A stretch of 28,896 nt of DNA from a virus: positions 1 through 28,896 of IMG/VR virus record IMGVR_UViG_3300023442_000019. One strand, written 5' to 3'. The notes beneath the pieces are model-generated. The model saw only the letters and a program-made list of their open reading frames with translations, did no database searches and was not told the origin of the DNA. Both the position numbers and the translations under genes were made by a program. Below are positions 893 through 24,377 of the stretch, in pieces. How positions within the stretch are numbered: the first letter of the stretch is position 1; every line of letters starts with the position of its first letter.

Positions 893-1540
893 TCACGGAA
901 CAATCGGAATTTCTATGAAGAGGTCATCCGTATTAAGTCGTGTATAGAATTTGACATCCCCCCATGTACGTACGCCCTCTGACCAATAACCACGTTCTCG
1001 ACAGTAATATATATCGCATTGTAACACTATGCGTTCTGTCTCATTTATCACAGCGTTGTCGATAGTGATGAAAAACGGTAGATCAGCAGTTAAATAGGCA
1101 TGACCGTTGTTGTGGCTTGCGGATAGGGGAGATGCCGTAGGCGGTGCTTGGGAAGAACCTAATATTCTTTTAGAACCGTTTACATCAATTGCAACTATGC
1201 TCAACACTGTGTAGGATTTCACTGTACAGTGAACGTAACCACCAGCTGCACCAGCGTGTACTTGCAGTCTTATATTTCCGTATGCAACCCCATCCAGTAT
1301 AGTTTTGTATCTATATTTGTGAGGAAATATAAAATAATATGACTTATTACCCCATGTGCATGATACTGCTTTACTTTCTGTTAGATTGAAACTCCAGACA
1401 GTGGTCTCCTCAGTTCTTCTGACATCAGCATTGAGATCTTTGCGCATTAAAATATGGTTGTATGTAGCATCCCATGTATATTCGTAATCGGTGAGAATCT
1501 GTGCCCTCAATTTCTCAAGCAACCGCATCTCAGCCATCAT
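893..1540 (-). CDS. tail-associated protein downstream of tape measure
   Basis: This 215-residue protein is not recognised by family. It starts with a helical, charged segment of about 20 residues, then continues as a mostly beta protein with many aromatic residues and a few cysteines. Its start ATG overlaps the tape measure stop in an ATGA arrangement behind a strong GGGGGTGAG ribosome site, which implies translational coupling. The position right after the tape measure gene suggests a distal tail or baseplate component. It could equally be the Dit homologue, with the following gene acting as tip protein. Confidence 0.6.
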   Translation of the reverse strand: MMAEMRLLEKLRAQILTDYEYTWDATYNHILMRKDLNADVRRTEETTVWSFNLTESKAVSCTWGNKSYYFIFPHKYRYKTILDGVAYGNIRLQVHAGAAGGYVHCTVKSYTVLSIVAIDVNGSKRILGSSQAPPTASPLSASHNNGHAYLTADLPFFITIDNAVINETERIVLQCDIYYCRERGYWSEGVRTWGDVKFYTRLNTDDLFIEIPIVP

Positions 1541-3150
1541 CTCACCCCCATACTGCTCGGTCCCGCACCCATAGCTATTGCTGCTGCAACCTTTTTGCTC
1601 ACTGAGGTGTAATCCTCTTCAGAAACGATTTTATCAATATGCACGTTAATATTAATCCGCTTCGGCTCTTTTTTGATAACCTCTAACTCTTTTGTGATCG
1701 TGGAGAGCGTATTCTTAAGCCCGCAGAACAGCTCCTCTTTTGCAGCAGACCTGACAGGAGCAGAAGGCATAGAAGGCATGGCAGGAACGGATGGAACAGG
1801 TGCAGGAGCTGCTACAGGAGGTGGTGCTGGCGCAGGGGTCGGAGCTGTAACGGTAGCAACAGGAAACACAAGCTCACTTGGTTTAGCTTTTCTGATACCT
1901 TTTCTTGATTCTGGAGTGATTACCTCCTCACGTTTCACAAATCTGCCACCCTCTCCCAGAAAGCCTCCAGCCGCAAGCCATTCTCTCTGGATTTTAGTTA
2001 AAGAGCCAAGCCTTCCCTCAAGCTCCTTCAAAGCATTTGCAGAAGTTTTAACCGCATTCGGGTCAATAGGCGGCTTAGTGCCTGCTTCATGCAGTTTTTT
2101 TGTCCCGTTTATAAGAACCTGCTCAGCCTCCCAGATTCTTCTATAAGCTTCGTTCAGATCTCTTGCATCTTCCTCTGCACTCTCCCTGATTTCACTTATT
2201 AGCTTATGTTCTTCTTCAAGAATTTTATTTGCTTTCTCGATCTCCTTCGCATTACCTGTGATCGTGCCTTTGATTTTGTGATATACATATCTTACATCAT
2301 GCTCAAGCCCCACAAACCCAGCTTTGATAACCTTGAACATGAACGTAAAACTGTTCACAACCACTTTTGCAGTACCCACCAGCATACGCATGACTGCTGC
2401 GAACTTTGCTGGCGAGTCGCTCTCAGCAAGTGCCGCCATATCGCCTGCAAGCTCTCTCAGTAGCTGTAGCAGCTCCGTACCACCCGCTTCAACCACATTA
2501 TGAAACTGATTGTTCAGGTTATCAATTGCACCCTGCAGGCTTTCCCCCCTTGCTGTACTATCCGCCATCATCTCGTTCAGCAGAGGTAGAATATTTGCCC
2601 AGGTCCTCTGCTCTTCGTTGAGCTTGCGGATGGCAGGAATATATCTTGCAAGCATGTTGGCATCGCCCTCTATCGCCCTGCCAACGTACATCGCAGCAGT
2701 CCTCAGGTCAAGGTTGGTGCTGTATGCCACCCTTGTAACCATGATGAGATTTTCAAGCGCAGTGTTATAATCAACACCCGTAACGATAAGCTGATTGAAT
2801 GCTTCCTGGACCTCAGTATCGTTATACGTTGTGATTTTCTCGATGTGTTTGAAATAAGCATCAAGCGACTTAGAAACTTTGTTCCACTCTATCCCCTGCT
2901 GTCTGAGCAGAGCTGCTGTTCTCACGCTCACTGCCTCTTCCTCTGCTGCCCATTTCACCATTACTCCAATCGCCCCCGCTGCAGCCCCAACAGCAACAGC
3001 ATACGCTTTCCAGTGTTTTTTAAGATTTGCAAGCACATTTTGCTGCGTAGAAGCCATCTTTTTAGTATTAGCCTCTACCTGCTTCAACCCATCAATCGCA
3101 TTCCTTACATCGCTCTTGATTTTTATAACAAGCTCTTCTATCGTTGTCAT
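1537..3150 (-). CDS. tail tape measure protein
   Basis: This 537-residue protein sets tail length during assembly and lies in the tail lumen. The N-terminus is helical, followed by an Ala/Gly/Val-rich hydrophobic stretch at about residues 49-67. Long helical segments with heptad-like character follow to about residue 390. A Pro/Ala/Val-rich linker lies around residues 425-465, and a charged C-terminus ends the protein. The order (major tail protein, frameshifted chaperone, coiled-coil protein, this gene) is the classical siphovirus order. It is short for the family, so a short tail is expected: at the usual 1.5 angstrom per residue, roughly 80 nm. The start ATG lies 2 bases from the upstream stop. 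Confidence 0.85.
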   Translation of the reverse strand: MTTIEELVIKIKSDVRNAIDGLKQVEANTKKMASTQQNVLANLKKHWKAYAVAVGAAAGAIGVMVKWAAEEEAVSVRTAALLRQQGIEWNKVSKSLDAYFKHIEKITTYNDTEVQEAFNQLIVTGVDYNTALENLIMVTRVAYSTNLDLRTAAMYVGRAIEGDANMLARYIPAIRKLNEEQRTWANILPLLNEMMADSTARGESLQGAIDNLNNQFHNVVEAGGTELLQLLRELAGDMAALAESDSPAKFAAVMRMLVGTAKVVVNSFTFMFKVIKAGFVGLEHDVRYVYHKIKGTITGNAKEIEKANKILEEEHKLISEIRESAEEDARDLNEAYRRIWEAEQVLINGTKKLHEAGTKPPIDPNAVKTSANALKELEGRLGSLTKIQREWLAAGGFLGEGGRFVKREEVITPESRKGIRKAKPSELVFPVATVTAPTPAPAPPPVAAPAPVPSVPAMPSMPSAPVRSAAKEELFCGLKNTLSTITKELEVIKKEPKRININVHIDKIVSEEDYTSVSKKVAAAIAMGAGPSSMGVR

Positions 3151-3151
3151 A

Positions 3152-3448
3152 TCACAGTTTAGCTCTCAAATCTTTGAGTTTCGTAAGCTCAGCATCTATC
3201 TCATTCACTTTATTTTTCAGCCCATCTGTCAGTATTGCCCTCTCAAGCTCGCTCAATCCTCCTCGTTTGGGTAGCTCCTGCATCTTTCGCATCAGCTCGG
3301 TTTTATCCTCCTGAAGCTTCCTGATTTTAGTATCTAAAATAACAGGAGTATCAACATCAGCCTTCAGCGCCTCTATCTCCGCATCCCTTTTCTGGAGTTC
3401 GGCTATCAGCTCAGCTTTTGTCATGTTGTTGTAATCTACTACCGCCAC
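3152..3448 (-). CDS. small coiled-coil protein between tail chaperone and tape measure
   Basis: This 98-residue, highly charged and almost entirely helical protein has heptad-like Leu/Ile spacing. The listed start is a GTG. An in-frame ATG eight codons later is an alternative. It lies tightly packed between the chaperone frames and the tape measure gene. No family is recognised. A role as tape-measure partner or extra assembly chaperone is inferred from position and coiled-coil character. Confidence 0.7.
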   Translation of the reverse strand: MAVVDYNNMTKAELIAELQKRDAEIEALKADVDTPVILDTKIRKLQEDKTELMRKMQELPKRGGLSELERAILTDGLKNKVNEIDAELTKLKDLRAKL

Positions 3449-3450
3449 TA

Positions 3451-3696
3451 TTACACCCCCTTTTTCATGTTTATGTTGTACTCAATCATCGCATTCTCAA
3501 TCTGCATGATGATTGCGGTGCGATACACAACTTCATAAGGCGTTTTCATAAGCTCATTCCAGCTCCAGCCCATGTTTTTCATGAGATAATGATACAGTAT
3601 CCTGCGGTCTCCGCCACCCCTGCCTCTTAACGCCTGCTCAACACGATAATGAAATTCCTCTCCATCCTCTATGAAGTCTTTTAGCCCCATTCTCAT
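3451..3696 (-). CDS. second frame of tail assembly chaperone (T-like domain)
   Basis: This 81-residue reading frame follows the first chaperone gene in the -1 frame. The frame stays open upstream of its ATG for 32 more codons, exactly to the slippery site at 3792-3798. A ribosome slipping there would make a 228-residue fusion: 115 residues of the upstream protein, a Gly/Asp/Ala-rich linker of 32 residues, then this domain. The layout matches the lambda gpG/gpGT arrangement, in which the T domain recruits major tail protein to the tape measure. No good ribosome site precedes the internal ATG, which favours expression by frameshift only. Confidence 0.75.
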   Translation of the reverse strand: MRMGLKDFIEDGEEFHYRVEQALRGRGGGDRRILYHYLMKNMGWSWNELMKTPYEVVYRTAIIMQIENAMIEYNINMKKGV

Positions 3697-3713
3697 TTTG
3701 CTTTTTCCTGCAT

Positions 3714-4136
3714 CTATCCCTTCTTCTCCATCTCTTCCGTCTGCTCCTGCTGTTCCTGCGCCATTATAGTCGTACTTATCCCTAAGTCCCTGAAAAAATC
3801 AGCAGCAGTTCCCCCAAGAAACTCTCTGCATTTTTTATATAGAGGGCGCAGAGGTGCATGTTTAAGCTCTTCTGCTGTTGCACCAGTACAGAGCATCACG
3901 GTTTTTATCGGCTCTGCAAGTCTCTGATGCAGCAGATATTTCTTCAGTTTCTCAGGGTTGTTCACGAGCTGCTCAGTGATAAGCTCCATTATGTCCCTGT
4001 TCTTATCTTCATGTTTGATACGCTTCAGATCAAGCACGTCCCAGAGCACTTTGTTATCGTACTCTATTACTCTCTCAACATCTTCAGTCAGAGGCTCACG
4101 TAGCTCGTAGGTCTTACCGTTAAGTTCCAGCTTCAT
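3714..4136 (-). CDS. tail assembly chaperone (G-like)
   Basis: This 140-residue, acidic and helical protein lies directly after the major tail protein gene and before the tape measure gene. That is the position of siphovirus tail assembly chaperones, which coat the tape measure protein during tail building. The N-terminus (residues 1-20) looks like a beta hairpin, followed by helices. The ATG lies 9 bases after the upstream stop, with a GGTGATAG ribosome site. Residues 113-115 contain the phased slippery site, so a fraction of product should continue into the next frame. Sequence families here are poorly conserved, so the call depends on position and the frameshift. Confidence 0.8.
   Translation of the reverse strand: MKLELNGKTYELREPLTEDVERVIEYDNKVLWDVLDLKRIKHEDKNRDIMELITEQLVNNPEKLKKYLLHQRLAEPIKTVMLCTGATAEELKHAPLRPLYKKCREFLGGTAADFFRDLGISTTIMAQEQQEQTEEMEKKG
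3792..3798 (-). promoter_or_regulatory. -1 ribosomal frameshift site T-TTT-TTC
   Basis: On the minus strand the heptamer TTTTTTC lies in the phase X-XXY-YYZ relative to the chaperone start: the Asp113 codon ends in T, followed by TTT (Phe114) and TTC (Phe115). A -1 slip re-reads the last C and continues as CAG. It then runs through 32 sense codons into the ATG of the downstream frame. A -1 frame stop just before the heptamer limits the window in which slippage can occur. The mechanism is known for tail chaperone genes; its use here is inferred. Confidence 0.75.
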
Positions 4137-4145
4137 GCTATCACC

Positions 4146-5060
4146 TTATGCTATCGTCATGTTTGTGATGCCCACGAAATCAACATCAAGTGTAACAAGG
4201 TCTGTTGGTGCAAGCTCAACAGCATCCTCTGGTATCCTCGCATTAGCAAAAGTGAACGTGGTCGCTCCCACTGTTATCACTAAATCGTTTGCACCAAACC
4301 CAACCGCCTTATCCGCAATTGCATCTATCGTTTTCTTTTTGACTGTCAGCGAAGCTTTAAAATCACGTTTGGCTGGCTCTATCGCTCCTATTTTTGTTGC
4401 TAAGCTTGAGTACAGGTCATACTGTGGGTCAAGATTGTTGTTGATGCTGAACTTTATCCCGCCAAGTGCAGAGTTAGGGATTGCTGCGCCGCCAAGCGTA
4501 ACGTTGCTGACATCGTCCCATGAAACGGGTACATTGCTGTTTTTTGTTGCATGAGTCCCAAGCCCTATGTAATCTGAAGAGGACCATGGATTGTTTGTGG
4601 TGGTGTAAACATGAGCTGCAATCAGTTTCATGCTCACTTTTGCAAAACCAGCCTCTGGGATCTCAACATCCACGCTGTCTATTTTAGCACCAGACAGCTT
4701 TGCGTATTTGCTGTCTGAGCTTATCAATCCAATACTCAGTGATGCAAGGTCATCTGTTGGTGTTCCGCCACCGCTGGAAGATATCGCATATTTCAAAAAC
4801 GTCCAGTCCTGCGGCAGATACTCAAGCTCTATTTCTATCGGTTGCAACCCTCCTGTAATTTCTGCACCTTCAAGCTCAAGCTTGTTGGTTGCACCTGAGT
4901 TTTTCAGAGTGCGATACTCTTCGTATTTCGGCTTCAGCGGTGCTTTTAGAGACTGCACTAACCCTATCCACTGCATTGCTGGGTCTGTGGGAAACGTGCC
5001 GAAAGTAGATTCAACAACGTATTCAGCCGTTCCGCTTTTCAGTATTACTATATTTGCCAT
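4146..5060 (-). CDS. major tail (tube) protein
   Basis: This 304-residue, beta-rich protein has many Gly, Ser, Thr and Val residues and few cysteines. It fits the tail tube subunit that polymerises around the tape measure. It lies between the tail terminator and the chaperone, the standard place. The N-terminus begins with a short strand and an EYVVESTFGTFP-like loop, similar in style to tube proteins of gene-transfer-agent-like and archaeal siphoviruses. The C-terminal half has a second beta unit that may be an Ig-like or duplicated tube domain. The start ATG has a GAGGTGAA ribosome site. No sheath gene follows, so the tail is probably non-contractile. Confidence 0.8.
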   Translation of the reverse strand: MANIVILKSGTAEYVVESTFGTFPTDPAMQWIGLVQSLKAPLKPKYEEYRTLKNSGATNKLELEGAEITGGLQPIEIELEYLPQDWTFLKYAISSSGGGTPTDDLASLSIGLISSDSKYAKLSGAKIDSVDVEIPEAGFAKVSMKLIAAHVYTTTNNPWSSSDYIGLGTHATKNSNVPVSWDDVSNVTLGGAAIPNSALGGIKFSINNNLDPQYDLYSSLATKIGAIEPAKRDFKASLTVKKKTIDAIADKAVGFGANDLVITVGATTFTFANARIPEDAVELAPTDLVTLDVDFVGITNMTIA

Positions 5061-11683: not shown

Positions 11684-14600
11684 TTACCAACTCCTCTGCC
11701 TGTCGAAAGCTTTTGTACTGTTCACCCAAAACCCTTCGCCCTGTCTTACCGCTATGCTTGCATTTCCTGTCAATCCACAGGTATATGTGTATTCTTGCTG
11801 TGTTTGTGGCTCAATATACACAATCTTATCAACATCACATACTCCATTACTGTTTATGCTTGTGTTTATCTGTTCAAGTGTCCTTGTGCCGTTATAGTCT
11901 AAGCCTAACAGATTCCAGCCTGTTTTAACAGTCCAGTTATAGTTTCCGTGTCCGTTGTCTCTTGTTACTGTATCGTTGTTTGCGAATTTGATATAAACTG
12001 CCTCTCCCTCTGGGATTGTCTGTGTTGCTCGGTAGCTCCAGCCTGCTTTGTATGTTTCCCATCTTTGAGTGCTGGAGTTCCAGCGTGCTATCCAAACGAC
12101 GTTAGAAGCATTCATGATATTTCTCATAGAGGTAAAGCTCTGGGTGGTGTTTATGAATACAGGTTGCCAGCCTGTGTTAAATACAGATTGATTGAATGAT
12201 GATGACGGAGGGATTACGTTTGTATAAACAACACCTGTTTGAGCGTATGCACCAGTTGTTGCATACGAACTTACATAATAAGTGTAGCTGTAATTCTGAA
12301 GATTGCTCATTGTTATTGACGCAGACGTGCCAATTTCATTTACCGTCATCGAAATATTATATGGTCCAGTGCTGTTAGTCCAGTGCAGTGTTGCGTTTTT
12401 AATCTCAGCTATTTCTGTTGAATTAACCTGTATTGTAAAATTATCTGAATATACTGTCTGATTAACAGGTGTTATAGGGTCATAAGCAATTCCGTACTCA
12501 AGTGATGTGAAATAAGAAGTCATACTTGAGAGACTACCAAGATATATTCTGTTTATTAAAGTTCCTGTATTTCCTTTACCACCCACTGCTAAAAATGGTT
12601 GTGGAGTTATATACTGTACAGGTGATGCGAATTCGTCATCACTATATGTTGTTGCCTTACAAAAGCCTATCCTGGGTCTCCCCCAATTCCACACACCAAC
12701 ACCATAATTTGTATCGTTCACAATAGCTGCAAAAACACCATCATACTTAACAAGACAATCATTGTTAGGTATTTCAGAGGTAATATCTATGAGCTCGCTT
12801 CCGTTATGAAATTTAAAAATTGAAAAAATCGGATTTATATATACCGCAGCATTCTCTTGATAAGCCGCACTATGATTGTCCTCTCCAAAATGAATGTAAG
12901 TATAATTTGCTATCAAAACAGGGTTTTCCCCATCAAATGTATAAGTTATTATTAATTGTAAGTCTGACTCAATACTATTGAGCCCATCAGGATTCCAAAA
13001 TGATAAATTTGTTATGAAAGTCGCAGAGTGATTTGTATAAGTATAATTAATAACTCTGCTTGGTCTTCCGTATTTACTTCCACTAAGTACAGGATTCCAT
13101 GACCAAGTCTCATAAAAATTAGTTTCATTATATCCTGAACTTGTCCAGCTTTCTGGCCAGTGATAAAAAGAGGATTGTATCTGCCGTCCAGCATCATAAT
13201 TATTAACAAGATTTGTATTATTATTTAATTCAGATAAATACGTTATAGCTCCACCATAAACAATGTCTATGCCTACTTTAATTTTTGAATTGTTAATATA
13301 TATTCTATCACTATCCCTGCCTATTACTCTTTCAGTGTATCCCAACGTTGTATCGTATACATATCCTGCTGGTGGTGTTCGGTTTACAATAGTAACGTAT
13401 GTCCCGTATGTTGTATTTTTATATCTTTCAACAGGATACAGATTAACGTTATTAACAGAGTATATATACCCTAAGTCCTCTCCTAATGAAAAACCAGCAG
13501 GGCATGTATCACTTATTGTATCCATGTAAATATTTGTAGTAGCATTTTGGCAGCGTATAAGATGTACTCTATTTGTTCCCCCGGAAGCAAGTGTACGAAA
13601 TTCGGGTTCTATGGTATTAAACCCGCCCAAGCCCTTTGTTTTTGATGAAACATATCTTCTTTCACCACCTATTCCAGCATCCCCTAAAAGATACACTAAA
13701 TTTTCCATCTGCTGGCTCAGATGTAAGCCTAAGTCAATTTCCACGTAATATGTGGGGGTTGTATAATTATTACCATTCGTGGTATTAGTTCCTACAACAT
13801 AATAATAATATTTTCCATCATATAAATCCGTAAGTGTGATTTCCCAGTCTGTTGTTGATACTTGATTCATCGGATATTGCTTAATACCCCACCATCTCGT
13901 ATCCCAATATAACGTAACATTGTCATATATTTCTGTAGTAGTAACTTTTATTGTGGTGCTTCTTGTGTTCCATGGCTCTTGCTGATTTAGTTTGGTAGGT
14001 GGCACAAATTTTATTTTTGGTGTGGTATTGTGTATATATATAGTTACATTGTATGTTGGTAGATAGTTACGGATTGTTACATTATTTTGAATTACAGAAG
14101 ACGGTACTGTAAAGTATACTGAACCAAAAACATCAGATGCATTGTAAGTTATATTAACTGGATTATCCGAAGATGTGTTCCAGTAGTTGCTCCATGTATT
14201 GTTATTAACAGTCGCCCTGATTTGTTCTGCTCTATCGTAATATATCTTCAATCTATCACTTTCATTTAATGTGCGATTGTATATGAGAACATTATCAATC
14301 GTGATATTCATATAACCTTCATAACCAGTGTAACTTCTTGCACCAAAACGCAGTGGTGTTGTAGTGGACTGCATTGTTCCTGAAAAAGAAGTATTAGTAT
14401 ATGTTAAGCTATACTGTGTACCATCTATACGTATGTATAATCTATTATCGCCTGTTTTTGAATTATCATACCCCACTTCTATCCAATGATATGACCCTTC
14501 TGGAAACACAGCATCTGTATCACCATACAGATAGTTTACATTGCTGGAGAATGTAACAACTCTTATAACTCCAGGGGAGGGCATTTCTATTCCAAACTGT

Positions 14601-15424
14601 CTTCCAGTTTCACTATCCTTCCCAAGCAAGCTTCCTGTTTTTGAGATGTTGTTTATTTTAACAAGCATTATAATAGTCCAGTTCCCACTTCCAAAATCAT
14701 ATGCTGTGTTAGAGGGAATCTCAGCGTATGTTCCTGTTGTTCCGCTGTAATGTACTGCATTGTTGTACATTCCTTCTACATGTTCATACGTACCGTACAA
14801 CGTGCCATTGTTTGCAGTAGAGGAATAGTCAATAAGCGTGTTCCCTGTTGCTTCGTCATGCCTCCACCAGCCCACAAGTCCGTTTGTAGGTATGTCGTAT
14901 GGGTCTGCTCTCGTTGATTTTGGGGTGATGTTAACCCACATATCAAGTATATCCTGTCCGTTATATGCGGCATCAAGTTGTACTGTACAATTTCCTGTAC
15001 ATGTAGCATTGATATAATGTGGGTCATAATACACCCTAAAATTTCTTACAAAAGATAAATCTCCTCCATTAGTATAACCCCATAATTCAATTCTGTCAGT
15101 GGTATTGAGTGTTATACTAATATCCTCTGATACTTGAACAAAGTAGTTACTTGTAGTACTGTGTTCTAAGCTAACCGCTACTCCGTTTTTTCTCACCTCT
15201 GTCCCTATTCCGTAGAGAGAACTACTTGATGTAGTGTTCATTTCCCATTTTACTCTTATTGTGCCTGTGATGTTTTCAGTCGGTGTTATCTCAAGTAGTT
15301 TTACATAAGTTGTGGAGGTTGTACTTGCTAAAGAGTCATTGCTCCATCTGAGGGTATTACTTGCCAAAACTTGTAAATTTGCAGAGGCTGGTGTTATTAC
15401 TGCTAAAAATAGTATTAACAGCAA
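11684..15424 (-). CDS. large secreted LamG-domain protein (adhesin or tail fibre)
   Basis: This protein of about 1,246 residues starts with a secretion signal: a hydrophobic run LLILFLAVITPASA. Mature sequence is extremely rich in Asn, Thr, Ser and Tyr, with many N-x-S/T sites. A LamG/concanavalin-like domain starts near residue 182 (GLVGWW) and ends near 400. Beta-rich surface-protein repeats and a C-terminal FQSF/GWNLLGL-type module follow. The listed start is a TTG without ribosome site; a CTG four codons upstream (giving RSK before the hydrophobic run) is possible. A strong ribosome site and ATG stand slightly upstream in another frame (see findings). The product is probably displayed on the host surface or used as receptor-binding fibre. 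Confidence 0.75.
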   Translation of the reverse strand: MLLILFLAVITPASANLQVLASNTLRWSNDSLASTTSTTYVKLLEITPTENITGTIRVKWEMNTTSSSSLYGIGTEVRKNGVAVSLEHSTTSNYFVQVSEDISITLNTTDRIELWGYTNGGDLSFVRNFRVYYDPHYINATCTGNCTVQLDAAYNGQDILDMWVNITPKSTRADPYDIPTNGLVGWWRHDEATGNTLIDYSSTANNGTLYGTYEHVEGMYNNAVHYSGTTGTYAEIPSNTAYDFGSGNWTIIMLVKINNISKTGSLLGKDSETGRQFGIEMPSPGVIRVVTFSSNVNYLYGDTDAVFPEGSYHWIEVGYDNSKTGDNRLYIRIDGTQYSLTYTNTSFSGTMQSTTTPLRFGARSYTGYEGYMNITIDNVLIYNRTLNESDRLKIYYDRAEQIRATVNNNTWSNYWNTSSDNPVNITYNASDVFGSVYFTVPSSVIQNNVTIRNYLPTYNVTIYIHNTTPKIKFVPPTKLNQQEPWNTRSTTIKVTTTEIYDNVTLYWDTRWWGIKQYPMNQVSTTDWEITLTDLYDGKYYYYVVGTNTTNGNNYTTPTYYVEIDLGLHLSQQMENLVYLLGDAGIGGERRYVSSKTKGLGGFNTIEPEFRTLASGGTNRVHLIRCQNATTNIYMDTISDTCPAGFSLGEDLGYIYSVNNVNLYPVERYKNTTYGTYVTIVNRTPPAGYVYDTTLGYTERVIGRDSDRIYINNSKIKVGIDIVYGGAITYLSELNNNTNLVNNYDAGRQIQSSFYHWPESWTSSGYNETNFYETWSWNPVLSGSKYGRPSRVINYTYTNHSATFITNLSFWNPDGLNSIESDLQLIITYTFDGENPVLIANYTYIHFGEDNHSAAYQENAAVYINPIFSIFKFHNGSELIDITSEIPNNDCLVKYDGVFAAIVNDTNYGVGVWNWGRPRIGFCKATTYSDDEFASPVQYITPQPFLAVGGKGNTGTLINRIYLGSLSSMTSYFTSLEYGIAYDPITPVNQTVYSDNFTIQVNSTEIAEIKNATLHWTNSTGPYNISMTVNEIGTSASITMSNLQNYSYTYYVSSYATTGAYAQTGVVYTNVIPPSSSFNQSVFNTGWQPVFINTTQSFTSMRNIMNASNVVWIARWNSSTQRWETYKAGWSYRATQTIPEGEAVYIKFANNDTVTRDNGHGNYNWTVKTGWNLLGLDYNGTRTLEQINTSINSNGVCDVDKIVYIEPQTQQEYTYTCGLTGNASIAVRQGEGFWVNSTKAFDRQRSW

Positions 15425-20490: not shown

Positions 20491-20502
20491 GACTTTTTAA
20501 CG
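20491..20502 (-). promoter_or_regulatory. late-type TATA promoter, copy 5
   Basis: Minus strand GTTAAAAAGTC ends 19 bases before the protease ATG at 20471. It overlaps the last codon and stop of the CysH-like gene, so the CRISPR-associated cassette ends exactly at this promoter. Confidence 0.75.
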
Positions 20503-21186
20503 TTTATATTTCCACATCAGGAATCTATCAACATTCTCTGAGCCGAATTTATCGAATTCAGGGTCAAAAAGGGTGGTGAATCTGGTACGTTCATAACCAA
20601 GAAGCTGAGCATACTTATCATAATAACTGAGGTATGGCACGTTATTTGATACGATATAAGCCCACACATCACGCCATGTAAAATCTCTTAGAGGGAAGAT
20701 GTTCGTTATGCCTCTATCATGCTCATAATAATTATTTGTCCTGAATCTGCGTTTTACTGATTCCTCTGCTCTCAGCCCTATAAATGCTGAATCATAACCC
20801 TGTTTTATCAGTCTCGGAATTTCTATGCCTATAAAATGCCTCCCCACAACGTTTTTTGCATGTCTGCCTTCTTTTTTGTAGAGTGATGAGGTAAGTACAA
20901 GAAAGTCTTTAGCTCCGCATTTTTTTGCTATCCTCAGGATTTCTCTATGCAGTTCTCGTGGAATAAAATAAGGACCATAATCCCAATGAAGAACGGTTAC
21001 GTTGCTGTTTTGCTGTAAAACTAAATGCATCATTGTTGTGGAATCCTTACCACCACTGAAAGCTATGTAGGGTTTTTTGAAATCTGAGAGGGCTTGCGTT
21101 ATCACTCTTTTAGCTGTCTTAAGTTTTTGTTGGAATTCGTATGTTTGCGACCAATGTTTGAAGTACTCAAGCCATTCAAGTTGCAT
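20497..21186 (-). CDS. cysH: CysH-like PP-loop protein of type IV-B cassette
   Basis: This 229-residue protein belongs to the PAPS reductase/adenine nucleotide alpha-hydrolase group. The PP-loop SGGKDS is at residues 44-49, within a strand-loop-helix, and RAEES is near residue 140. Its C-terminus lacks the ECGLH catalytic motif and iron-sulfur cysteines of true sulfonucleotide reductases, and only one Cys is present in the whole protein. CysH-like proteins without an assimilatory role are the known companions of type IV-B CRISPR loci. It overlaps the glycosyltransferase gene by 11 bases. The reaction is unknown; nucleotide binding or AMP transfer is likely from the PP-loop. Confidence 0.82.
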   Translation of the reverse strand: MQLEWLEYFKHWSQTYEFQQKLKTAKRVITQALSDFKKPYIAFSGGKDSTTMMHLVLQQNSNVTVLHWDYGPYFIPRELHREILRIAKKCGAKDFLVLTSSLYKKEGRHAKNVVGRHFIGIEIPRLIKQGYDSAFIGLRAEESVKRRFRTNNYYEHDRGITNIFPLRDFTWRDVWAYIVSNNVPYLSYYDKYAQLLGYERTRFTTLFDPEFDKFGSENVDRFLMWKYKR

Positions 21187-21913
21187 GACAATTTACCCTT
21201 AGATTATCCTTGTGTAATTTATGAGCGTTTCTACTAAGTTTAAACCCAAGCCATGTTCCTGTTCTTTCGACAAGCCCGTCATATACTCTATCTAATTTGC
21301 TTCGTCTTATATGATTTGCACCAGACCTCTCTCTAATTAAAGCCCGTAAACCACCATCGCTGCGGATTTTGTGTTTCGCAAAGACAAAACCACATCTGTA
21401 ATTTTGATACCCTGCAAGATATGAACGTATAAAAAGCTCCACATCATCAAGATAGTCTTCTCCATGACCGCCAAAACTTTCATACGTCTCTTTTTTAACC
21501 ATGATTCCTCCACCTGTAAATCCAAGTGCTATTTTCTTGAAATCATATTTTGATGGCTTATTATGTGCAAATTGGATCAATCCCGTCTCAACATGCTGTG
21601 ATTTTGTAAATTTAATGATTTCGTGTATTTTATTCAATGATTGATTAAAAACAACATCATCATCTGTAAAAACAATATACTCATTACTCTTAATATTATC
21701 TTCAACATTTTTGAAAAGTTCCTTACGTTTTATAGCTGGATAACCAGGTGTGCTCTCAAAATAGTAGTCTATATTTGTACTATTAATCTGTTTTGATGTC
21801 CCTTGAGCTAAAATAGCAATTGTTACTTCAATCCCAGAATTTAATAAACTTTCAACACACTCCTTAAGTAAAGCTGGTCGATTATAACTTACTATCAAAA
21901 ACCAAACTGTCAT
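21176..21913 (-). CDS. GT-A family glycosyltransferase
   Basis: This 245-residue protein has a GT-A-like Rossmann start (FLIVSYNRPALLKECVESLL). It has a TDDD metal/sugar-nucleotide motif at residues 83-86, and GGGIMVKKETYESFGGHGEDYLDDVELFIR, where the acidic ED/DD residues are likely catalytic. It resembles family-2-type and phage DNA-modification-associated transferases. The ATG at 21913 has GGGAGGTAG upstream; a GTG at 21934 is an alternative. It lies between csf3 and the CysH-like gene, an addition I do not know from standard type IV-B loci. The acceptor could be protein, glycan or modified DNA base. Confidence 0.8.
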   Translation of the reverse strand: MTVWFLIVSYNRPALLKECVESLLNSGIEVTIAILAQGTSKQINSTNIDYYFESTPGYPAIKRKELFKNVEDNIKSNEYIVFTDDDVVFNQSLNKIHEIIKFTKSQHVETGLIQFAHNKPSKYDFKKIALGFTGGGIMVKKETYESFGGHGEDYLDDVELFIRSYLAGYQNYRCGFVFAKHKIRSDGGLRALIRERSGANHIRRSKLDRVYDGLVERTGTWLGFKLSRNAHKLHKDNLRVNCHAT

Positions 21914-22613
21914 GATACCTACTACCTCCCGCACTCAAATCAAGCTTTACAGAAGCCCCAGGAGTGGCACATAAGTCAGTATTTTCTGAAGCCCAATATG
22001 GTGCTTTGTATGCAAGTCTGGCAATATCGCTTGCTGATCTTAGAAACTTGATAGGTATGGCTCTCATTGCTTTCCCGTCTTTTATGATGCTGTAATCCTT
22101 ATCTATCTCTTTTATCTCAAATGATTTTACAAAACCATAGCCTATTGCTGTTTTTTTTCCAAGTGCTGGTAGTCCCTGAAGTAGTGTTTTTATCTCATCT
22201 GCATTCCCGCAGGCATAAAACGTAACTTTCCGTGCTGGAATATAAACAAGCGAGATCATGTAGTCCTTGAAGAGCCCCCGTGATTTGTCTATCCTCTTTT
22301 TCTTTATTTTTCTAAGATTGAGATAACGCTCACAGAAGCGCTTGTAGATTGTAGTTGTGTAGGCGTCTGAGGTATCAAAAAAGGAGATAGAGGCGTGGTA
22401 GATTGAGTGATGCTTTTTCAGAGGGAGAGGGGTGTCTCCGCAGCTTTTCACAACTTTTTTAGAGGGCAAACAGCGATAGCCGAGAGGGTCTTTTCTGCGA
22501 AGGGTTAGATGAGCGAGCAGCGCATCAAAATGGATGAAAGGGTAGGTAAGACAGATAGGGGTGCGCATAAAAAATGTTATTTTTAATGGTGTGTATGCGC
22601 TCTCTGCATGCAC
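21882..22613 (-). CDS. csf3: Csf3 (Cas5-like subunit, type IV-B)
   Basis: This 243-residue RAMP-fold protein fits Csf3. The early segment reads TPICLTYPFIHFDALLAHLTLRR, the standard start of the family. The Gly-rich loop GKKTAIGYGFVKSFEI near residue 155 is the RAMP signature. In type IV complexes it caps the 5' end of the guide RNA. The GTG start is chosen because GGAGG at the end of csf2 lies nine bases upstream and no ATG gives the same frame without losing the start. It overlaps the glycosyltransferase gene. Confidence 0.85.
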   Translation of the reverse strand: MHAESAYTPLKITFFMRTPICLTYPFIHFDALLAHLTLRRKDPLGYRCLPSKKVVKSCGDTPLPLKKHHSIYHASISFFDTSDAYTTTIYKRFCERYLNLRKIKKKRIDKSRGLFKDYMISLVYIPARKVTFYACGNADEIKTLLQGLPALGKKTAIGYGFVKSFEIKEIDKDYSIIKDGKAMRAIPIKFLRSASDIARLAYKAPYWASENTDLCATPGASVKLDLSAGGSRYHDSLVFDSKL

Positions 22614-22618
22614 AGCAT

Positions 22619-23443
22619 TCAGCCTCCAAGTTGGTTTAGCAGATCAATAATTTCTTTTTTGTGGTCCTGCAGAAAGTTGAGATAGCGTTCTGAGGTTTCG
22701 CTGAGGTTATAAGTTATTTTAAGCTCCCCAAGACCTATTGCGGATTTGCCACCAATATATGGTTTGGTTTTCCACAGCTCTATCACTCGTGCAAGACAGG
22801 ATTTGTCTATCTCATCAGGGTCTTCAAGCTTGAATTCGTGATAAAACTCAGTACCTGCTGCAAATACTTCATGCTCTATCAGCATCTGAACCGCCTGCTC
22901 CCCTTTTTCCCTCTCTGCCTTCAGGTCATCCTTGCGTGTTTGGTAGTGATGTGACAACAGTTCGTAAATGCTGTGTGCAGGATGTACTGGCAAATAGGCT
23001 ATAAGCTCTGTGCAGATTGGCAGCCCCTGCCCAACTTTTAGCTTACTCTCTATTATCTGGTTGCCGATACTGAAACCGAACAGCCGAACAGGTGGAAGCG
23101 TCTCGACTATACTGCGTTTTAGGGCTAAGTCTATAACACCACTGCTTTTCTCATCAACTGTTTCAAGCACTCCGCCTGTGAACAACGCATGATATAGTTT
23201 CTGTCCTCTTGGTGTGGATACGTCAAGCTCGTATCCTACCTGCTCAAGCATATCAGACATTATCAATCTGCGTAAAACACCACGTATGGCATTTCCTGAG
23301 ATTATTGGGATTTCCTCTGCTCCATTATCTGTTATGAATTTCTGACGGTTCAATAATACTACTGACCCTGTTTTCTCATTCCCTCCATGAAATATCGGAG
23401 AGAGGGCTTTTAATGTTCCACTTACGGTTAATACTCCATACAT
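22619..23443 (-). CDS. csf2: Csf2 (Cas7-like backbone, type IV-B)
   Basis: This 274-residue RAMP protein has the typical Csf2 beginning: SGTLKALSPIFHGGNEKTGS (residues 8-27) and ISGNAIRGVLRR (48-59). The C-terminal YIGGKSAIGLGELKITY carries the Gly-rich loop. Many copies of Csf2 form the helical filament that holds guide RNA in type IV particles. The ATG lies after a GAGGTGATT ribosome site and 3 bases downstream of the cas11-like stop. No catalytic residues are expected, as Cas7-like subunits of type IV-B are not known to cut DNA. Confidence 0.88.
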   Translation of the reverse strand: MYGVLTVSGTLKALSPIFHGGNEKTGSVVLLNRQKFITDNGAEEIPIISGNAIRGVLRRLIMSDMLEQVGYELDVSTPRGQKLYHALFTGGVLETVDEKSSGVIDLALKRSIVETLPPVRLFGFSIGNQIIESKLKVGQGLPICTELIAYLPVHPAHSIYELLSHHYQTRKDDLKAEREKGEQAVQMLIEHEVFAAGTEFYHEFKLEDPDEIDKSCLARVIELWKTKPYIGGKSAIGLGELKITYNLSETSERYLNFLQDHKKEIIDLLNQLGG

Positions 23444-23446
23444 AAT

Positions 23447-23812
23447 TCAATCACCTCTCTTTTCTTTTAATTCTTCTTTCAATTCTTTAGCTCGTTTTGC
23501 TGCTTTGAGCGTGAGGAGTTTTGGCATCCGCCTCATAAGTGCGAGTGCGTGTTTTTCGTTTTCTCTGAGAAACTCTATGGTTTCAAGAGGGAGCGGTGGG
23601 GCTTGCAAGCTAAGGGTATTGCACAGTTTTTGAATTACTGAGGGTATATCACGCTCATATCTTGCAAACTCTAATCTATGCTCAAAAATATCGTATGCGG
23701 TCTTGCTTCTTGCTATCTGTTTCCAATTTACTGCTTTGTAAATATACGCAAGAAGCTCTACCCATGCAGACTCTATCTTATCATCTAATTTCTCATCATA
23801 TTGCAAATACAA
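23447..23812 (-). CDS. cas11: Cas11-like small subunit (type IV-B)
   Basis: This 121-residue, entirely helical and charged protein sits between csf1 and csf2, exactly where type IV-B loci encode the Cas11 small subunit that lines the RNP filament. It starts with TTG after GGAGGTGA, overlapping the csf1 end by 17 bases, which indicates translational coupling. The sequence itself is not distinctive; identification is from helix content, size and order. Confidence 0.72.
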   Translation of the reverse strand: MYLQYDEKLDDKIESAWVELLAYIYKAVNWKQIARSKTAYDIFEHRLEFARYERDIPSVIQKLCNTLSLQAPPLPLETIEFLRENEKHALALMRRMPKLLTLKAAKRAKELKEELKEKRGD

Positions 23813-24377
23813 TCACCTCCCACATTGGGTTTTTGTTATATTTTATAATCTGCTCACATAACTGCCTGTGTTCCCATTTGTTTGTATGCGGAGTGGTCAT
23901 AAGTTCGGTTTTTGAGAATTTTAGCTCTCGTGCCTGTTTTACTATCGTGATGAGTTTCTCAAGCATTGTGCGGTCTATGAGGATGAGTTTGTCCTCAAAA
24001 GCTATGAAATATCTATTTATGCTGTATGATGGGCGTGTTATCAGGTGCAAAAAACCCTGTTTCTTACCTGATTTTGTGAGATATATTGCAAATGGTGGGG
24101 CTGGTGGATTTAGGAGGGTAGGCAGGATTTCTGTGCGGTCCAGGAATCTAACACCGCTCTCAGAGGCTACCCATGATTTACGTCTGTAATCCTGAGACCT
24201 GCATAATGTGTAGCAATACTCACAAATACAGCTTCCTTCCTGAAGCAAGCTCCATGAGGTAAAATTGGATGAGAAATCTATGTCATTCCCAGCATCAGTT
24301 TTTGTACCACAGACTATACAAATCCCTCTCTGCTCGCCACAGAGGGGCTTGAAGAACTCGGAAATTCTTGTAATCAT
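23796..24377 (-). CDS. csf1: Csf1 (Cas8-like, four-Cys zinc finger)
   Basis: This 193-residue protein shows the Csf1 layout: CxxC at residues 20 and 23, an F-x3-F plus W-containing stretch, then C-x2-C at 52 and 55, followed by a short beta/alpha domain. Csf1 is the signature subunit of type IV systems and stands for the large subunit. Additional cysteines at 13, 50 and 59 are present. The ATG has no ribosome site, so the operon probably starts with a leaderless mRNA. It heads the set csf1-cas11-csf2-csf3. Confidence 0.82.
   Translation of the reverse strand: MITRISEFFKPLCGEQRGICIVCGTKTDAGNDIDFSSNFTSWSLLQEGSCICEYCYTLCRSQDYRRKSWVASESGVRFLDRTEILPTLLNPPAPPFAIYLTKSGKKQGFLHLITRPSYSINRYFIAFEDKLILIDRTMLEKLITIVKQARELKFSKTELMTTPHTNKWEHRQLCEQIIKYNKNPMWEVIVFAI

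Follow-up and report, generated by a model that had tools for sequence, protein, structure and literature searches.

Programmed frameshifts in the tail chaperone genes of tailed phages, with lambda G/GT as the reference case, were reported by Xu, Hendrix and Duda (2004) and are covered by Atkins et al. (2016; PMC5009743). In lambda, the tape measure protein is the binding partner of G, and the tail tube subunit that of T (PMC5009743). A second pair, E/E+E' of phage P2, uses TTTTTTG as its slip site (PMC3091744). Among viruses of archaea, a -1 tail chaperone frameshift has been predicted for the haloviruses HVTV-1 and HCTV-1/2/5 (PMC5009743) and for Hardycor1 (PMC7911831), and the predicted sites take the form G_GGA_AAN or A_AAA_AAC (PMC5009743, PMC7911831). 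Documented programmed frameshifts in archaea are few, and as reviewed in 2021 they comprise a fucosidase, four haloviruses with a -1 shift, one halovirus with a +1 shift and a suspected magnesium chelatase (PMC8211752).

The DNA considered here, referred to throughout as the window, is a complete IMG/VR record of 28,896 bases. Comparison of its sequence with those of its relatives makes it very probable that the window encodes a G/GT-type tail assembly chaperone, produced via -1 programmed frameshifting, in a tailed virus of thermophilic, Archaeoglobi-type archaea. No report of a -1 tail chaperone frameshift in such viruses was found in the literature searched, which lay mostly outside the subscription journals.

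Organization of the locus

The structural genes of the window virus are carried on the minus strand, and its terminase and portal genes are recognizable. Two overlapping frames sit between the gene for the major tail (tube) protein, located upstream of G at 4146-5060 (minus strand; Pfam Phage_tube_2, PF18906, 6e-10; also phrog_290, 'minor tail protein', 2.4e-14), and that for the tape measure protein at 1537-3150 (minus strand; 537 aa; matches to several PHROG tape measure families, the best at 1e-5). This placement is broadly shared by the relatives described below, whose genes were identified by eye and from profile matches. The order of tail tube, G, T and tape measure is the position of a G/GT pair. 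Specifically, the G-like chaperone ORF (3714-4136, minus strand) constitutes the zero frame, begins at AAGGTGATAGC-ATG with an anti-SD energy of -9.5, and encodes 140 aa before the stop codon TAG at 3716-3714. The T-like domain (3451-3696, minus strand) lies in the -1 frame and measures 81 aa from the ATG at 3696. T is separated from the tape measure gene by a small, coiled-coil-like ORF of 98 aa (3152-3448, minus strand) with a GTG start and a strong ribosome-binding site (-13.0). In an Archaeoglobi provirus (L046, 4788-6442), this same interval holds two extra ORFs that look like an inserted toxin-antitoxin-like pair: one has 382 aa and an HTH-like N-terminus, the other 167 aa.

The slippery heptamer T_TTT_TTC is read directly on the minus strand at 3798-3792, where it forms an in-phase X_XXY_YYZ site at codons 113-115 (GAT TTT TTC), the exact phase that an earlier note on this DNA had claimed. 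In the -1 frame, a TGA stop is found immediately upstream of the heptamer, after which the frame is open until the TAA at 3453-3451. This open stretch includes a linker of 32 codons (3697-3792, minus strand; QGLRDKYDYNGAGTAGADGRDGEEGIDAGKSK) that is read in the -1 frame only, after the slip, and that reaches T at the ATG at 3696; in the window and relatives alike, the second ORF is the -1 frame and is open back to the slippery site. When recomputed, the fusion comes to 228 residues as compared with 140 for G alone. The earlier note was thus correct in every coordinate and length that it gave for the frames, heptamer, linker and fusion, to which it can be added that all of these lie on the minus strand, the strand having gone unstated.

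Under the mechanism proposed, most ribosomes would complete the 140-aa G protein, while a minority would slip back by one base at T_TTT_TTC, with the P-site Phe-tRNA re-pairing on TTT and the A-site Phe-tRNA moving from TTC to TTT. Ribosomes that had slipped would then continue through the 32-codon linker and on through the T domain, yielding a GT fusion of 228 aa. If the analogy with lambda holds, the tape measure protein would be coated by G and tail tube subunits would be recruited by the T part, and for this reason the ratio of G to GT would matter for tail assembly. We infer the occurrence and efficiency of slippage, its SD-like stimulation and the chaperone role of the products.

Two further regions of the minus strand fall outside the tail genes. 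The first, at 20497-24377, is a type IV CRISPR effector operon in which PADLOC identifies Csf1/Cas8 (2.4e-38), Cas11 (3.3e-27), Csf2/Cas7 (7.5e-69) and Csf3/Cas5 (1.3e-61), accompanied by a PAPS-reductase (CysH-like) gene (PF01507, 6e-18) with a glycosyltransferase-like ORF between. Judged by its genes the operon is type IV-B-like, and the association of IV-B with CysH has already been reported for the Fuxiviridae of Bathyarchaeia (PMC10848311). The second, at 11684-15424, is an ORF of 1246 aa with a TTG start and a secreted or adhesin-like composition, which probably encodes a tail fibre or glycan-binding protein.

Host and relatives of the window virus

The nearest TerL sequences in genomes come from Archaeoglobales assemblies, namely Geoglobus sp. 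(84%), Archaeoglobales B5_G16 (87%, partial) and Ca. Mnemosynella biddleae JdFR-21 (76%), and one more match, at 83%, comes from a MAG labelled only 'bacterium'. In Mnemosynella, the TerL gene belongs to a provirus, since tail genes are present on the same contig of 226 kb. These TerL neighbours in Archaeoglobales MAGs, together with the provirus in the Mnemosynella contig, support the earlier proposal of an archaeal virus, and most likely place the host in the Archaeoglobi. In an Archaeoglobales virus relative (L007, 1-1636; also L016), TerL seems to contain an intein, the insert beginning CFVAGTLITTNRG... and ending ...VHNC.

Scans of IMG/VR with a single protein, either G or the tail tube protein, as query returned no relatives; these were reached via TerL first and by profiles after. 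The tail tube protein of one relative, IMG/VR record 3300033156_001008 (L009), is 33% identical to that of the window, and the G proteins of the two are 29% identical. Profile searches led to the Mnemosynella provirus (L020), another Archaeoglobi-class genome (L025), two sequences from elsewhere in the phylum (L029 and L030), and three from the class of L029 (L034, L035 and L036), such that homologues of both G and T are found in eight archaeal viruses or proviruses. A search of the class of G170 gave no further genome, and tblastn against phages with G, the tape measure protein and the L036 GT as queries gave no matches. Across the nine sequences, including the window, the fusion ranges from 176 to 230 aa in length. 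Its identity to that of the window is 21-31% (in an alignment of six), and the window T is 31-36% identical to the T parts of its nearest relatives. In Nitrososphaera Pro-Nvie1, two ORFs with a 4-nt overlap occupy the same place, with no heptamer recognizable by inspection.

Chaperone identity and comparison with known systems

The window's own G and T have no significant family match in PHROG or Pfam, and their AlphaFold models, made from two-sequence alignments, are of low confidence (pLDDT 48 for G and 60 for T); the assignment as a chaperone consequently rests on relatives and position. Specifically, comparison of the relatives' T halves with PHROG yields matches to the 'tail assembly chaperone' family phrog_9001 (1.1e-4, 1.7e-3 and 7.9e-3), and these matches, taken with the anatomy and position of a G/GT pair, support the identification of a tail assembly chaperone made in the earlier note. 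Similarly, the suggestion that the locus follows the lambda G/GT design with another slippery sequence is supported by anatomy, by position and by the in-phase slip site in eight relatives. Lambda, the slip heptamer of which is G_GGA_AAG, differs in that heptamer, and a further difference is the 98-aa ORF that follows T in the window, ahead of the tape measure gene. P2 resembles the window virus in its U-rich T_TTT_TTN heptamer, its -1 shift and its lack of a downstream hairpin, and differs from it in being a bacterial myovirus. The haloarchaeal viruses are alike in that they, too, are archaeal head-tailed viruses with a predicted -1 chaperone pair; their hosts are halophiles, whereas the window group has T_TTT_TTN, Archaeoglobi-type hosts and conservation over nine sequences.

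The closest named homologue of T is the 'tail assembly chaperone' of Bacillus phage Riggi, which is 40% identical over 58 aa to the T of L030 (E 6e-4). Relative to the ORF before it, the T-like gene of Riggi occupies the -1 frame; that ORF ends with an in-phase A_AAA_AAG, and the -1 frame is open from this heptamer to the end of T. Riggi therefore has the same architecture, with another heptamer, in a bacterial virus. The Bacillus phages Riggi, Finn and Blastoid (Andromedavirus) share the homologous T domain, its location in the -1 frame with respect to the ORF upstream and, in the case of Riggi, the in-phase heptamer, but they differ from the window group in that the heptamer is A_AAA_AAG and each of the two ORFs is annotated as a CDS of its own, with no frameshift. 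Riggi_24/Riggi_25 (1430-2025 of the Riggi sequence, L052), two such CDSs, probably represent an unannotated chaperone frameshift.

Conservation of the slip site and the -1 frame

In-phase heptamers of the form X_XXY_YYZ number 41 in the 8274 codons of the window virus's main ORFs, six of them T_TTT_TTN, and because such sites are this common, an in-phase heptamer by itself is weak evidence and not beyond chance. At only two of the 41 does the -1 frame run at least 20 codons beyond the gene end: T_TTT_TTC at 3798-3792 and A_AAG_GGG at 3463. The latter (3457-3463, minus strand) is in phase where the T ORF ends, and from there the -1 frame continues open into the 98-aa ORF; since the heptamer falls inside the strong ribosome-binding site of that ORF it is probably just that site.

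Conservation among the nine sequences lifts the heptamer of G above chance. An in-phase T_TTT_TTN is present at the homologous place in the window and all eight relatives (TTTTTTC in six, TTTTTTG in two and TTTTTTT in one), a Gly-Gly pair precedes it in each, and from it the -1 frame is open through the homologous T domain in 9/9. The earlier note had proposed conservation of the heptamer as a check, and had named as a refutation the finding of related viruses that had lost the heptamer while keeping both frames with separate ribosome sites; the eight relatives, each with the site in phase, display the contrary pattern. When synonymous codons were shuffled within each gene with the amino acids fixed, the per-gene probability of the heptamer ranged from 0.03 to 0.45 (product ~1.5e-8) and that of the open -1 overlap from 0.02 to 0.54 (product ~1.4e-8), products that are nominal in that the relatives are treated as independent despite shared ancestry, with L009 and L020 lying close together. 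Within the 46-nt overlap of this close pair, five codons have changed in the zero frame, 5/5 nonsynonymously, as opposed to four in the -1 frame, two of them synonymously (one TCT>AGT) and two conservatively (F/Y and E/D), and all of the changes precede the first -1-frame start codon. Across eight sequences, the 12 residues past the slip reach a mean BLOSUM62 score of +0.39 when read in the -1 frame, as against -0.12 for the zero frame and -0.97 for the +1 frame, and the -1-frame residues conserved across relatives are the first 8-12 after the slip.

Candidate stimulatory signals

A G-rich, Shine-Dalgarno-like element, GGGGG, lies upstream of the slip site at 3811-3815 (minus strand; anti-SD energy -8.4 kcal/mol) and is a candidate stimulator of slippage. 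SD-like elements (GGAGG, GGGGG or GGTGAT-like) occur just upstream of the heptamer in 9/9 sequences, and the equivalent element in relatives, at -9.9 to -12.4 kcal/mol, is as strong as true ribosome-binding sites. The element coincides with the conserved Gly-Gly codons, and for that reason synonymous shuffling (P 0.15-0.69) does not distinguish selection on the RNA from constraint on the amino acids. Downstream of the heptamer, no conserved RNA structure signal was detected, with z near 0 in most and a hairpin in L036 only; P2-like phages are likewise without downstream structure (PMC3091744). Such a structure is optional in G/GT frameshifts as opposed to a defining requirement, and phages often lack it.

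Alternative explanations

Were T instead made separately, by reinitiation or coupling at a start of its own, the heptamer and open overlap would be incidental. Consistent with this idea, the ATG of the window T lies 17 nt past the stop of G and is preceded by a weak AGGA (ribosome-binding site energy -4.0), and in L009 and L020 the TGA stop of G overlaps a -1-frame GTG (GTGA). We nevertheless regard it as very unlikely, given that the first ATG, GTG or TTG of the -1 frame downstream of the heptamer comes at +165 nt in L025, +186 in L030 and +174 in L034, inside the T domain and too late to produce it separately. Anti-SD energies at the first -1 start are near random in eight of the nine sequences (0.8 to -4.0, as compared with -5.9 to -11.5 at G starts), the exception being L036, where a GTG at +99 has an energy of -9.1; in L034 and L036, moreover, there is a -1-frame ATG 33 nt upstream of the heptamer. 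Also at odds with separate production are the conservation of the -1 frame upstream of any start and the retention of the heptamer in 9/9. The T domain of most relatives has no usable start of its own; in the window (from ATG 3696) and in L036 (from GTG +99), some separate T may be made.

Harder still to credit is slippage of RNA polymerase on the T6 run, by which the addition of one U to some transcripts would give the same fusion. The site is a run of six U (seven in L036), and the protein product would be nearly identical. Transcriptional slippage usually needs longer runs, however, and eight of the nine sequences show no lengthening of the run; in addition, the strong SD-like element stands at a fixed distance upstream, as with ribosomal stimulators, and the Riggi homologue uses A_AAA_AAG, though this too is homopolymeric. 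Two sequences, furthermore, end in TTG, like the ribosomal site TTTTTTG of P2 (PMC3091744). The abundance of in-phase heptamers, 41 in this virus, could also suggest a chance site joined to a sequencing or assembly frameshift, or to a decaying gene. That account is refuted by conservation, the same in-phase site and both frames being present in eight other records, and merits virtually no credence.

Implications

With programmed -1 frameshifting by the ribosome as the preferred reading, a broader proposal can be framed tentatively, and we consider it possible though rather doubtful: that in a lineage of archaeal head-tailed viruses spanning the Archaeoglobi together with further classes in their phylum, T_TTT_TTN is coupled to an internal SD at invariant Gly-Gly codons, with slippage of tRNA-Phe and a G:GT ratio possibly set by host tRNA modification. 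The modification of the tRNA-Phe anticodon loop varies among thermophilic archaea.

As a kind, the mechanism is already known, being widespread in phages and predicted for haloviruses. What the window and its relatives would add, judged by their sequences, is a deeply conserved predicted case outside the halophiles, with a slip site of its own. With it, the part of the gene product that had been missing can be annotated, and the case may provide a test system for U-rich slippage by archaeal, perhaps hyperthermophilic, ribosomes.
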